DNA from: Candidatus Cloacimonadota bacterium
Lineage (GTDB): Bacteria > Cloacimonadota > Cloacimonadia > JGIOTU-2
DNA: 36,546 bases
Assembly: GCA_014382495.1 (NCBI GenBank)
Contig: JACNJR010000006.1
Location: 1-36,546, forward strand
Direction: 5' to 3'
The notes beneath the pieces are model-generated. The model did not search any database, was not told the origin of the DNA, and was given only the letters and a program-made list of their open reading frames with translations. This document shows positions 22,765-28,692 of the stretch, piece after piece. The first letter of the stretch is position 1. Every line of letters begins with the position of its first letter. The position numbers and the translations under genes were made by a program.

Positions 22765-23031
22765 ATGGCAAAAAAGAAAAAATATGTGTATGAGGCGGAA
22801 AAATTCTGCGTCCCTGTTACAAAAATTTCACCGCTTGAAAGTATTCAATTTGTTATTGACGATTTCAAAAAGAGAAAAGTGACATTTTGCGTTGATGGGA
22901 ATGAAGAACGATCTGAAATTTGGAGAATTGAGGAAAATGGTGATTCGGATAAAATCAAGAAAAAAAATTTTCCTAAAAAACCAAAACATCTATATGTGAA
23001 GGGAAAAGAGGTCGAATACAAAATCAAATAA
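22765..23031 (+). CDS. Small basic hypothetical protein (88 aa)
   Basis: Good RBS (AAGGAG) before ATG. Co-directional between rodA and the enolase fusion. No family recognised. Confidence 0.6.
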   Translation: MAKKKKYVYEAEKFCVPVTKISPLESIQFVIDDFKKRKVTFCVDGNEERSEIWRIEENGDSDKIKKKNFPKKPKHLYVKGKEVEYKIK

Positions 23032-23055: not shown

Positions 23056-25797
23056 ATGAAAAAAATTAATCTACAAAATATCATTGCCCTCGATAAAGGA
23101 TGGGTGATTGCGAATCATATTTTGGTCTCATTTCATGTCGCTTTCATTTCCTCCGTTCTGTCCATTGGATTGGATATTCAGAGCAAAGGTGAAGTTCTGA
23201 AATTTATGTTTTTAAGTTATGAAACTCTTCTCTCGCTTGCATTTCTATACATTACATTTCACACTTGCATTGCGATCCACGAGATGGGACATTATCTGAA
23301 AGCGGTGAAGATAAATGCCTTGAATGAAACGCTTTTGCGGGATGCTCAGAAAAATATAAACAGCGGAATTGGAAGGAAATTTTTCTGGTATCTTGAGATG
23401 TTTTTCAAAATTCCTTCTGGGCGATTCGGTGGTATCACAAAGACCAAACTTGATTATCATCCCGATGCGCCATACAACCTTGCTGTTGCTGCTGCCGGTC
23501 CTTCTGCAAGTAAAAAATTATCTTCAATTACTCTGCCAATTGCGATAATTCTCCTCTATTTTGGATTGACGCAAAATTTTACAATTGTAATTTATATTGG
23601 CAGATTGTTTTTAGGATTTGGACTTGTAAGCTTGCTTGATTTTCTGCTTGCTGATCCTGGAAAATATAAAGAATTCAAACAACGAGAGAAGAAAGCTGAA
23701 CAGGCATCAAAAAAAACTAAAGAGTTAACTGGCACGGACAAACTGAGATGGATTCAGAATGTAAAAAAAGTGAAAGCGATGATGATTCATACAAGGATTC
23801 AGAAAGTTGCTCTGCCAGATGGAAGAGAAGAATGGGTGCCTTGGGAATTTCGCAACTGCGGAATGGGCGGTCGTCATACTGAAAAAGAATTTCCAGAAAG
23901 CAATATCAGTTTGCAAGAAAGTATGTTCATTCCGTTGAGTGTAAAAAATTATGAAGATGCACAGGAGATGACGGTCAATCTGCAAACTCGATTGAAAGAA
24001 ATTATTGAAAACGCAGAAGGATGCACGGTGAAAGGCATTGGAAGTGAAGGTGGAATAGCTGCTTATATTAGAAAAGGAGCGAACGACACATTGCCTGTCC
24101 AACGATTATGGCGAATGCAAAAACAAGCAATTTTGGATTGTGGCTATATTCCAGGTAAAGATGTAGCGATGGCGCTCGATCCCGCTGCAAGTGAGTTGGA
24201 AAACGCTTATCGCGATGAAAAAGGATTGTCAGCAGAAGAAGGCATTGGAATGTATCTCAGCTGGCGAGATAAAGACAAAGTAATTTTGAGCAGAGATGAA
24301 CTTCTCGAAATTTTTACAAAAGCAATAGACGAAGATGACCTTCCTATCGTCTCAATCGAAGATGGTTTCGCCGAAGATGATGATGCGGGATGGAAATTGC
24401 TTATGGATAAACTCAGCGACAAAATTCATATCATTGGAGATGATAATATCACAACTAAAGATTCATCAATTGAGGAAAAAGCAGATAAAGGTCTGATAAA
24501 TACTGCATTGATCAAACTTAATCAAATCGGAACTGTGACAGAAGGAGTTCTGGCGCTTCTTACTGCAATTGGAAAAAATCTCGAAACAGTTGTATCACAC
24601 AGATCAAAATCTCCGATTGAAGATTTTGAAGCACAAGTCGCACTTGCCGCTCACTCTTTGGGCTTGAAAGCTGGTGGCGGAGCGAATTCTGAACGACTTT
24701 ACAAATATGAATCTGTGACCAAAGTCATTAAAGGTGCGATAGAAAAAGCCGTTCAAAAAGATGAAAATGTTTCTCAAACTGAAATTAAAAATTTTGTAAA
24801 TAATCTTGAAATAACAGAAATCATCGCTCGAGAAGCATCGACAAATGCTGGAATTCCAACAGTTGCAGTCGAAATAAAAGTAGGAATTTCTGGCAGTAAA
24901 GAATTTACCAAACTTCTCACATTCGAAGGTGCAACTCCGCTCGGAACTTCCGCCGGAACTGACGAAGCAATTCATCTCGTTGATAGTATAATTCCGGCTA
25001 ATTCTCCAATTGCGAAAAAATATCCCAAACTGTTCAATCTCCAAAATCTTGATAAAACATATCGATTTAAGAAAGCAGTGACGGACAAAGAAATATCTAT
25101 AAAAGGCGATACTCAACTTTCCGAAATGTGGAGAAGGGCAAATCGATATAACGGAAAAGGATGTCTAAATGTTGTCGAAAATGTCGAAAATATTTTGGCA
25201 AAAGAATTTATTGGCAAGAAAATTTTCGAGCTTGGCGATGTCGTTGAATTGGATAGAACTTTATTAAAACTGGAAAGGGATTTAGCAATCGAACGAGCGA
25301 CACTTTCCGAAAATTCTTCTGATGAAGAGAAAATAAAAATTATGCAAAGAAAGGGAAATCTTGGAATGAATGCGGTGTTATCTACATCTCTCGCTTTATC
25401 CAGATTGAAAGGAACAATGAGCGGAAAAGAATTTTGCGAAGTTATGCAAGAACAGATGACCAACACAATTGCAAAAATTATCGCTGAAAATGGCGGATTG
25501 GAATTACTTGATTCGATGAAAGAGAAGATGATTTCTCAAAAAATCGAAGAAGCCAAATATAAAAATAACAATAAATTTTCAGAAGCAGAAAAAGAAAAAA
25601 TTATTGAAAATGTGAATGATGTCATCGAAAAAATCAGAAATAAAAAAACAAATAATGAATTATGGAAAGTTTTTGCAGAGAATTTAACATTCGAAAATTT
25701 ATGCTCAGGATTGCAGATTGTGAATCAAAACAAAAAAGACGAAATCCCGTTGTATCAGTTAATTAGAAAACAATTGCCGGTTTATCAGCTGAATTAA
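23056..25797 (+). CDS. Fusion protein: membrane M50-like zinc metalloprotease domain + circularly permuted enolase (barrel domain first, N-terminal domain last)
   Basis: One uninterrupted 913-codon ORF. HEMGH (aa 75-79) in a TM segment, plus AAAGPSAS and LLDFLLAD. Enolase barrel motifs at aa ~270-540: GGRH, LQESM, GSEGG, ALDPAASE, SIEDGFAEDD, IIGDD, LIKLNQIGTVTE, VVSHRS, LKAGG. Enolase N-domain motifs at aa ~585-913: IPTVAVEI, GTSAGTDEA, GKGCLNVVENVENILA, GNLGMNAVLSTSLALS, IPLYQLIRKQLPVYQLN. Confidence 0.9.
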   Translation: MKKINLQNIIALDKGWVIANHILVSFHVAFISSVLSIGLDIQSKGEVLKFMFLSYETLLSLAFLYITFHTCIAIHEMGHYLKAVKINALNETLLRDAQKNINSGIGRKFFWYLEMFFKIPSGRFGGITKTKLDYHPDAPYNLAVAAAGPSASKKLSSITLPIAIILLYFGLTQNFTIVIYIGRLFLGFGLVSLLDFLLADPGKYKEFKQREKKAEQASKKTKELTGTDKLRWIQNVKKVKAMMIHTRIQKVALPDGREEWVPWEFRNCGMGGRHTEKEFPESNISLQESMFIPLSVKNYEDAQEMTVNLQTRLKEIIENAEGCTVKGIGSEGGIAAYIRKGANDTLPVQRLWRMQKQAILDCGYIPGKDVAMALDPAASELENAYRDEKGLSAEEGIGMYLSWRDKDKVILSRDELLEIFTKAIDEDDLPIVSIEDGFAEDDDAGWKLLMDKLSDKIHIIGDDNITTKDSSIEEKADKGLINTALIKLNQIGTVTEGVLALLTAIGKNLETVVSHRSKSPIEDFEAQVALAAHSLGLKAGGGANSERLYKYESVTKVIKGAIEKAVQKDENVSQTEIKNFVNNLEITEIIAREASTNAGIPTVAVEIKVGISGSKEFTKLLTFEGATPLGTSAGTDEAIHLVDSIIPANSPIAKKYPKLFNLQNLDKTYRFKKAVTDKEISIKGDTQLSEMWRRANRYNGKGCLNVVENVENILAKEFIGKKIFELGDVVELDRTLLKLERDLAIERATLSENSSDEEKIKIMQRKGNLGMNAVLSTSLALSRLKGTMSGKEFCEVMQEQMTNTIAKIIAENGGLELLDSMKEKMISQKIEEAKYKNNNKFSEAEKEKIIENVNDVIEKIRNKKTNNELWKVFAENLTFENLCSGLQIVNQNKKDEIPLYQLIRKQLPVYQLN

Positions 25798-25814: not shown

Positions 25815-26123
25815 ATGAAAATGCGCGGAAAGCGAAAAATAAATTGGAAATTGATTTTAATTATTTTGTTCGCTGTGACAATTTGGTTTCTCGTTATTGA
25901 TAAATATAATTTAGTCAAAATCTGGAAAAATAAAATTCAAATCTCTAAAAATGTAAATTTGATTGAAAATTTAACGGAACAAAAAACAGAACTGCAAGCA
26001 CAGAAAACTAAACTAGAAAATGAGAATGAAGAAACAATAGAAAAAAAAGCTAGAGAAATCGGGCTCACAAAACCTGGTGAAAAAATCATTCGAATTATCG
26101 AAGAAGAGAAAAGTGGTAAATAG
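25815..26123 (+). CDS. FtsB/DivIC-like septum formation initiator
   Basis: Short protein with one TM helix followed by a coiled coil (LIENLTEQKTELQAQKTKLENENEETIEKKAREIGLTKPGEKII). Position next to enolase fits ftsB. Confidence 0.8.
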   Translation: MKMRGKRKINWKLILIILFAVTIWFLVIDKYNLVKIWKNKIQISKNVNLIENLTEQKTELQAQKTKLENENEETIEKKAREIGLTKPGEKIIRIIEEEKSGK

Positions 26124-26132
26124 TTTAGAAAT

Positions 26133-27416
26133 ATGAATACGATTTATAAAGCAAAGATTTTATCGCCGATTTCAAAAGACGAAATTTCCTTTTTCTCGCC
26201 TGGATATCTTGTAAATTCTGAGAATGGCAGAATTTTAGAATTAACTGATGAAAATCCTCAGAAAAAATATAAAAATTCCCAATTTCTTGATTTCTCTGAT
26301 AAAATTATTTGTCCTGGTTTTATCGATGTTCACAGCCATCTTTCACAATTTCAATTGATGGGTATATTTCACGAAAAACTTCTGAATTGGCTGGAGAGAT
26401 TGGTCTTTCCACAAGAAGAGAAATTTCAATCTGAAAAATATGCGAAATTGGCAGCAGATATATTTTTTGAAAATCTTCTATCTAACGGCACAACAACGAG
26501 TTGTACTTATGTAACGGTCCATAAAAATGCAACTGATTTAGCTTTTCAGTCGGCAAATGAAAAAGGAATTAGAGCGTTTATTGGGAAAGTTTTAGTTGAC
26601 CAAAATGTACCAAAAAATTGGTTGGAAAATCCAGAAAAATCATTGAAAGATTCTGAAGGATTAATAAAGAAATGGGATGGAATTGACGGTCGTCTAAAAT
26701 TTGTGCTAACTCCCAGACACGCCGTATCTTGCTCATTTGATTTTCTAAAAAAAATTGGCAAATTAGCAAAAAAATATGACGCTTTCGTTCAATCGCATTT
26801 GAGTGAAAGTAAAATAGAAATCAAAAAGATAAAAAAAATCTTTCCAAATTTCAAAAATTATACTGACATTTATCTGAAAGCAGAAATTCTATCTGAGAAA
26901 ACAATTATGGCTCATTGCATTCATTTGTCCGAAAACGAAATTAAAATTTTACGAAAAACTAACACGAAAATAAGTCATTGTCCAACCTCTAATCGTTTTC
27001 TTGAAAGCGGAATAATGCCATATAGAAAACTGGAAGAGAGCGATTTGACAATTGGCTTAGGCACCGATATCGCTGGTGGTTATAGCACTTCAATGTTCAA
27101 TGAAATGAGAGAAGCAATTGAGACATCAAAAATGATGAATATTATCCATCCTGAAAAAAAATACAGAAGAATATCAGTTTTCGAAGCATTTTATTTAGCA
27201 ACTCTGGGCGGGGCAAAAGTTTTGTCTCTCGAAAATGAAATTGGCAGTTTAGAAAAAAACAAATCAGCAGATTTTTTGATTATAAATCTTGACAAAATTT
27301 CAGGAAACAATGAAGAGATTCTTTCAAATCCCAAAAATATCTTATCAAAAATGATTTATCTTGGAAATGAAAACATCGTTGAACAAGTTTTTGTAAAAGG
27401 AAAAAGATTAATTTAG
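26133..27416 (+). CDS. guaD: Guanine deaminase-like amidohydrolase
   Basis: Metal-site motifs GFIDVHSHLSQ, FVQSHLSES, AHCIHLS and GLGTDIAGGYSTSMFNEMREAIETSK, typical of guanine deaminases. Confidence 0.85.
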   Translation: MNTIYKAKILSPISKDEISFFSPGYLVNSENGRILELTDENPQKKYKNSQFLDFSDKIICPGFIDVHSHLSQFQLMGIFHEKLLNWLERLVFPQEEKFQSEKYAKLAADIFFENLLSNGTTTSCTYVTVHKNATDLAFQSANEKGIRAFIGKVLVDQNVPKNWLENPEKSLKDSEGLIKKWDGIDGRLKFVLTPRHAVSCSFDFLKKIGKLAKKYDAFVQSHLSESKIEIKKIKKIFPNFKNYTDIYLKAEILSEKTIMAHCIHLSENEIKILRKTNTKISHCPTSNRFLESGIMPYRKLEESDLTIGLGTDIAGGYSTSMFNEMREAIETSKMMNIIHPEKKYRRISVFEAFYLATLGGAKVLSLENEIGSLEKNKSADFLIINLDKISGNNEEILSNPKNILSKMIYLGNENIVEQVFVKGKRLI

Positions 27417-27447: not shown

Positions 27448-28692
27448 ATGGAGTATAAGTTACTTTCAAACAGCGATATGAAGGCGATTGATGCTTTAAA
27501 AGAGTTTCACGGCGGAGCAAAAAAAATTAGTGAAACTATCACAAAAATGCGAGATCTTGAAACGAGAAAAAAGATTCTGAAAGAAAAAGGTTTCGGAGAT
27601 ATGATTGAAGATGCGGAAAATCTCGTAAAAAAATTCGCCAAAGCTGGAGATTTTGAAACGAAAAACAATATTTCTTACAATGATAAATTTGGAATTGCCA
27701 CAGCACAAGTTTCCGGCTGGCAAGGTGCACCGGTGACTCATCACGCAATGAAGAGAATTGCAAAAAGCGCCGAAACTGACGAACCTTGTTTTGTCCCTTC
27801 TGAATTTATTTCTGTGGTTGCCCTAACGGATAATTATGTTTACAATGGCGATTTGCTCGCAACTCTCACAATGGCAGAAAATATAATGAAGGGTTCAAAA
27901 TTCTGTAGCACAAATCTTATCGGTATTCCTCAACCAGAAAAAAGATTTGTCGAATTAGAAAAAATTACAGGCAAAAATTTCGAGAGAACTGATCTCAGAG
28001 ATGGAAATTCTATGCTAATTCTAAAAAATCAAGGAACCTTTTTTGGGAATTTTGGTGGAATCGAAGTTGCAAACGACAATCACCTTATCTATCTCGACGG
28101 AATTACAAGAACCGCACTTGCAACTGGCGCAGATTTTTTCCTGAATCCAAGCTGGAGCACAATTGTCGCAATTTGCTATTATGGGCGCGATATTCCAAAT
28201 ATTCATATAAAAATTTCTATGCTGCTCGCAACGCAAAATCTGATGCAATTCCGAATGCTTCTGAACATAATGAAAGAGTACCTTCGCGACGATATGACCT
28301 CGCCATTATATGAAATCAATATTGGAAATGGTGTGGACGCAGAAAATTTCATAAAATGCGCAAAGGAACTGAAAGAAAGCGGAATTAAAGGTGTCAGTTT
28401 GTCCGCTCATATCAGAATAAATCCTGATTTGGGAATTGAAAATTTCAACTGGACAGAAAATATGCACAAAGTTTTAGAAAGCGGAACAGATATAACTTTT
28501 AAGTATGAATCTGATGGAACTGCGCGTGAAATGGATACGATGGAGACATATTTCCTTCCTGAAGATGAGCGAAATAAGAATGCAGAAAAAATTGGTGATG
28601 TGATTTTCCACAAAGCACTTCAAGCATCCAAAGATGGAAGAGATATGATGAGAAGAGGTATTAGAGTAAAATTTGGCGAAAGTTCATATTAA
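27448..28692 (+). CDS. Conserved-looking hypothetical protein (414 aa)
   Basis: Strong ORF with RBS (GAAAGG). Soluble protein upstream of the panB-like gene. No family recognised. Confidence 0.7.
   Translation: MEYKLLSNSDMKAIDALKEFHGGAKKISETITKMRDLETRKKILKEKGFGDMIEDAENLVKKFAKAGDFETKNNISYNDKFGIATAQVSGWQGAPVTHHAMKRIAKSAETDEPCFVPSEFISVVALTDNYVYNGDLLATLTMAENIMKGSKFCSTNLIGIPQPEKRFVELEKITGKNFERTDLRDGNSMLILKNQGTFFGNFGGIEVANDNHLIYLDGITRTALATGADFFLNPSWSTIVAICYYGRDIPNIHIKISMLLATQNLMQFRMLLNIMKEYLRDDMTSPLYEINIGNGVDAENFIKCAKELKESGIKGVSLSAHIRINPDLGIENFNWTENMHKVLESGTDITFKYESDGTAREMDTMETYFLPEDERNKNAEKIGDVIFHKALQASKDGRDMMRRGIRVKFGESSY

Follow-up and report, generated by a model that had tools for sequence, protein, structure and literature searches.

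A membrane-protease-like fusion protein carrying a circularly permuted enolase at the eno locus of a Cloacimonadota genome

The permuted gene and its domains

The stretch of DNA analysed here, which we call the window, is 36,546 nucleotides long and belongs to a metagenome-assembled genome (MAG) of Candidatus Cloacimonadota (G000; contig JACNJR010000006.1). All features described below lie on its + strand. At 23056..25797 the window carries a permuted enolase fusion gene (P0001), an ORF that starts with ATG, has no internal stop and encodes 913 aa. The protein begins with an M50/site-2-protease-like membrane domain (23089..23793, aa 12-246), which is followed by the enolase C-terminal TIM-barrel domain (23839..24726, aa 262-557, delimited by Enolase_C and hhalign). 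The enolase N-terminal domain lies 3′ of the barrel (24808..25449, aa 585-798, delimited by Enolase_N and hhalign), and a helical C-terminal tail, recognized from the alignment and the structural model, completes the chain (25450..25794, aa 799-913). The gene is flanked upstream by a conserved gene of 88 aa that has no Pfam match (22765..23031) and downstream by an FtsB/DivIC-like gene (25815..26123; DivIC, E 4.4e-13) and an amidohydrolase gene (26133..27416; Amidohydro_1).

To our knowledge, almost all organisms have enolase, and its domain order does not vary. The initial annotation had placed the barrel ahead of the enolase N-domain, and this swapped order is borne out by Pfam, by alignment to PDB sequences and by hhalign. 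Enolase_C matches aa 265-566 (E 1.9e-44) and Enolase_N matches aa 693-741 (E 2.6e-9, above the curated cutoff). In a phmmer search against PDB, aa 253-566 correspond to enolase residues 135-418, and weaker matches pair aa 585-643 with residues 4-54 and aa 763-794 with residues 101-132. In hhalign comparisons of family profiles, the permuted barrel matches the canonical barrel at 100% (E 1.3e-63) and the C-terminal half matches the canonical N-domain at 99.7% (E 3.1e-26, 131 columns), while the negative pairings, C-terminal half with barrel and M50 part with N-domain, gave no match. The outcomes that the initial annotation had named as contrary to it did not occur: Enolase_N aligns after Enolase_C, aa 585-913 does match Enolase_N, and chimeric assembly does not hold. 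Both enolase domains are present and complete by Pfam and hhalign, as had been claimed, and their order is reversed in the family members having both. The NCBIfam model eno (TIGR01060) matches piecewise with 185 bits against an equivalog cutoff of 300, a shortfall that is in part what one would expect of a permuted chain, which cannot be aligned to it over its full length. The N-domain also has an extra insert between the catalytic loop, which bears the invariant Ser632, and RYNGKG.

One detail of the initial annotation did not stand. The extreme C-terminus (IPLYQLIRKQLPVY) had been read as a remnant of the interdomain hinge, but it shows resemblance only, because the profile alignment puts the counterpart of the last helix of the canonical N-domain (..LPLYRYL) at aa ~790-798 (GKEFCEVM). 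A helical tail of ~115 aa separates this segment from IPLYQLIRKQLPVY; canonical enolase lacks such a tail, and the alignment revealed no canonical counterpart for aa 799-913.

Structure prediction, a check proposed with the initial annotation, yielded a confident fold for the enolase part. AlphaFold2 of aa 247-913, with an input of 28 rows (five permuted proteins, the rest being canonical enolase fragments), gave a mean pLDDT of 89.3 and a pTM of 0.91; the full 913 aa with five rows gave a poor model (pLDDT 49). The best 50 PDB fold matches of the aa 247-913 model are all enolases, over ~300 columns, with target-normalised TM-scores of 0.56-0.61 that cover the barrel alone because the aligner is sequential. 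The two halves thus map to the canonical halves, swapped, within one confident fold. The circularly permuted enolase, including its domain order and completeness, is real.

The barrel retains the catalytic residues H274, E288, E331, D375, E435, D462, K487, H515-R516-S517 and K538. Across the family, 12 enolase catalytic residues are invariant in every permuted member covering them; in yeast enolase numbering, they are S39, H159, E168, E211, D246, E295, D320, K345, H373, R374, S375 and K396. Conserved departures occur in the second shell: canonical SHRSGET is changed to SHRSKSP in nearly all permuted members, GDEGG to G(S/T/L)EGG, and the RSER-type motif to ANSER or ANTER. The gene is under purifying selection. 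Across four close pairs, dN/dS is low in all parts of the protein and lowest in the barrel (0.03-0.05 in three pairs, the fourth being saturated), and it is 0.04-0.13 in the M50 part.

The N-terminal half had been described as a transmembrane region with HEMGH, and a membrane-protease-like segment is confirmed, its M50 assignment consisting of the motif and sub-threshold profile scores. Hydrophobic segments lie around aa 25-32, 59-66, 163-173 and 183-193. The zinc motif HEMGH (23278..23292; H75, E76, H79) keeps its H, E and H in all members covering it, and Asp195 in LLDF (23638..23640), a candidate third metal ligand, is kept in all covering members except G314, so that both HExxH and a later Asp within membrane segments, as expected of M50/site-2 proteases, are present. 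Peptidase_M50 is the sole Pfam family matching more than one member. It matches 8 of the 10 members (best E 3.6e-5), with scores of 16.4-23.5 bits in full-length proteins, under the Pfam cutoff of 27.2 wherever a score was shown; in the window protein the match is weak (aa 65-243, 18.9 bits). The N-terminal half had no match among PDB sequences.

Like the site-2 proteases SpoIVFB and mjS2P, the protein has HExxH in a hydrophobic segment, a conserved AAGP, a conserved Asp ending a later hydrophobic segment, and a C-terminal domain predicted to be cytoplasmic. It differs from them in staying under the Pfam M50 cutoff, in lacking a PDB sequence match, and in having enolase in place of the C-terminal CBS domain of SpoIVFB, whose zinc ligands are H43, H47 and D137 and whose CBS domain is cytosolic and follows the membrane part (PMC11486902). 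The hydrophobic segments, together with the richness in Lys/Arg of the region that follows the last one (aa 198-265, 17 K/R vs 10 D/E), suggest that the enolase part is on the cytoplasmic side. The permuted enolase is predicted to be membrane-located, and the protease-like half may be a working metal site instead of a mere anchor. Four genomes of the group that contains WOR-3 (L144, L146, L147 and L148) have, close to the permuted gene, a second ORF of ~555-583 aa with HExGH.

Homologues and the eno locus

A scan of GTDB genomes recovered four full-length homologues of 54-66% identity, whose MAG contigs carry the labels Cloacimonadota, Omnitrophica, WOR-3 and unclassified. The wider survey of related genomes, carried out by phylum group with the N-terminal profile as query, brought the family to ~32 homologues in four phylum-level groups, with the same domain order in independent assemblies. 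Carriers make up 8 of 384 genomes in the Omnitrophota group, 19 of 147 in the group with the WOR-3 contig and the contig labelled Cloacimonadota, 3 of 17 in a third group, and 3 of 125 in the phylum of the window itself, where two are partial. Alignment A1 has a mean column identity of 74%. On the question of a viral origin, a scan of viral contigs with the family alignment found no homologue. Divergent homologues of the M50 part (WHERGH), cut by contig ends, occur in two genomes of the window's phylum (G490 and G485; L159, L160), both of which also contain a canonical enolase sequence.

In a barrel tree, 30 permuted proteins form one clan (SH-aLRT 100) on a branch of 2.25 from 41 canonical enolases; 37 of the 78 canonical rows were left out of this tree, as a simple hinge pattern missed their barrel start. 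The window protein groups with those of G063, G667, G647/G648 and G524/G060/G062, that is, across three phylum groups, from which we infer horizontal spread of the permuted enolase among candidate phyla.

It is evident from the neighbouring genes that the permuted gene occupies a conserved position. The sister genera have the order 93-aa gene, canonical eno, ftsB-like gene, amidohydrolase gene, and the window has the order 88-aa gene, permuted enolase, ftsB-like gene, amidohydrolase gene. The sister-genera counterparts of the 88-aa gene (92-96 aa) lie upstream of canonical eno, in most cases directly adjoining it, and the ftsB-like and amidohydrolase genes keep their positions 3′ of it; identities to the window are 66-71% for the 88-aa gene, 35-54% for the ftsB-like gene and 55-67% for the amidohydrolase. 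Since the flanks are the same as those of canonical eno, the permuted gene stands exactly in the eno slot. MAG contamination was rejected for the window contig because these flanks match the sister genera. Further downstream, a 414-aa ORF without a Pfam match at E 0.01 lies between the amidohydrolase and ketopantoate hydroxymethyltransferase genes (27448-28692).

No enolase besides the permuted one was found in G000, a MAG of 1.37 Mb in 97 contigs that is 94% complete. A canonical enolase might still lie in the missing ~6%, though the conserved eno locus is occupied. Among high-quality genomes of the phylum, 70 of 71 have an enolase match. The genome G001, of the same family as G000 and 99% complete, is without an enolase match of any kind. 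With PPDK and iPGM genes, G000 encodes the reactions before and after enolase. No iPGM_N match came up in the remaining genomes that have only a permuted enolase. G000 has a second iPGM_N match (C59:7368-8933), which is split in two; one of the pieces contains an in-frame TAA. The apparent in-situ replacement of canonical eno in G000 supports a real glycolytic or gluconeogenic role.

Similarly, loss of canonical enolase is associated with the permuted gene in the group that contains WOR-3, where it is missing from 11 of the 19 carriers vs 7 of the 128 non-carriers (p = 1.4e-7, counting genomes, related ones included, and not independent events). One of these 11 carriers, G525, has a permuted copy cut by a contig end. 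Canonical enolase is kept in the other eight carriers of this group, in the Omnitrophota carriers, and in G063, G667 and G669, and the permuted enolase is therefore not needed for glycolysis in them. In seven of these eight carriers (G586, G587, G588, G590, G592, G647 and G648) and in G667, the canonical gene is directly downstream of the permuted one. Two sets of arrangements can be paired. G587, G588, G590 and G592 have the permuted gene, the canonical gene and a gene for a 187-aa protein in this order, and G581 and G589 have the permuted gene followed directly by the 187-aa gene. G667 has the permuted gene, the canonical gene and the ftsB-like gene, and in G063, which shares the genes further out on either side, the permuted gene is followed by the ftsB-like gene; the canonical enolase of G063 lies elsewhere in the genome. 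These pairs are what one would expect to see before and after canonical eno was lost beside the permuted gene. As the permuted gene sits in the former place of eno in some genomes, the permuted version probably took over a central metabolic step.

Function and rival explanations

These results are best explained by a natural permutant of phosphopyruvate hydratase that is active and tethered to the membrane, has spread horizontally and has repeatedly displaced canonical enolase, a reading to which we assign a probability of roughly 0.8. The M50/S2P-like domain would tether the enolase to the cytoplasmic membrane, and the barrel and N-domain would still come together in the usual enolase arrangement despite their swapped order in the chain. 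Given that arrangement and the presence of all catalytic residues, the protein most likely catalyses the interconversion of 2-phosphoglycerate (2-PG) and phosphoenolpyruvate (PEP), presumably at the cytoplasmic membrane face. The gene is envisaged as moving horizontally among several candidate phyla, having come to adjoin eno several times and then displacing the canonical gene in place, as in the window's lineage. The likeness to enolase (EC 4.2.1.11; PF03952 and PF00113; TIGR01060) extends to complete domains, catalytic residues, barrel fold and eno locus; the differences are the swapped order, the N-domain inserts, the helical tail, the membrane N-terminus and the sub-cutoff TIGR01060 score. 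We found no description of a permuted enolase or of an S2P-enolase fusion in open-licence PMC text.

It seems unlikely, though worth weighing, that the enolase part is a ligand sensor in which 2-PG or PEP binding gates an intramembrane metalloprotease, glycolysis being secondary or absent. By analogy, enolase would sit at the position of the C-terminal cytosolic CBS domain that follows the H43, H47 and D137 ligands in SpoIVFB (PMC11486902). The near-complete conservation of HExxH and the later Asp, also in copies next to a canonical enolase, fits such a protease, and so does the constraint on the M50 part itself (dN/dS 0.04-0.13); yet a pure sensor would not require every catalytic residue to be invariant, no protease substrate is known, and no other enolase was found in 11 carriers of the WOR-3-containing group or in G000. 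A combined function, in which the protein would be both the glycolytic enolase and a sensor coupling 2-PG/PEP flux to the cleavage of membrane proteins, is likewise a doubtful proposition. The second-shell changes beside the equivalents of His373, Glu211 and Lys396 leave room for altered specificity. Together with the long branch (2.25) that separates the permuted barrels from the canonical ones, they could indicate that the protein has neofunctionalised, keeping the enolase fold but using a related phosphorylated substrate, with PEP supplied by another route. We regard this as distinctly improbable, as the substrate- and Mg-binding residues are all kept, the eno-ftsB locus is occupied in situ, and canonical eno is lost in several lineages. 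That a chimeric assembly or a frameshift swapped two gene pieces has a negligible probability, even with a MAG of 97 contigs as the source: the same order recurs in ~30 genes from independent assemblies, on contigs as long as 2.85 Mb (G586), 1.43 Mb (G277) and 0.95 Mb (G648), and the window gene has native flanks and is under purifying selection. An assembly or frameshift artefact was rejected because the order is conserved in four phylum-level groups.

If the permuted gene is indeed an active enolase that displaces the canonical one, it would be a clear case of central metabolic enzyme replacement, in which a mobile gene displaces a housekeeping gene in place and intermediates, with both genes side by side, are still visible. 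It would also bring a glycolytic enzyme and the fold of a membrane protease together in one protein. Annotation that relies on the ordinary domain order can miss a cell's only enolase.

Giant ORFs in Omnitrophota

Giant ORFs with few annotated domains have been described in Omnitrophota, where enolase was not mentioned (Seymour et al. 2023, PMC10066038). In 6 of the 8 Omnitrophota carriers the permuted module sits inside such ORFs, of 1988-10,304 aa, in contrast to the free-standing gene of the window. One ORF of G337 (L163:3-6863) has two modules in tandem, and the contig starts within the first of them. We further noticed that module-bearing giant ORFs (L032:751-15109, L164, L165, L166 and L168) hold pieces of other central-metabolism enzymes, namely Glu/Leu dehydrogenase, UDPGP, GPI and PPDK, with PGM/PMM in the next ORF, and that some of these pieces follow a signal-peptide-like start.
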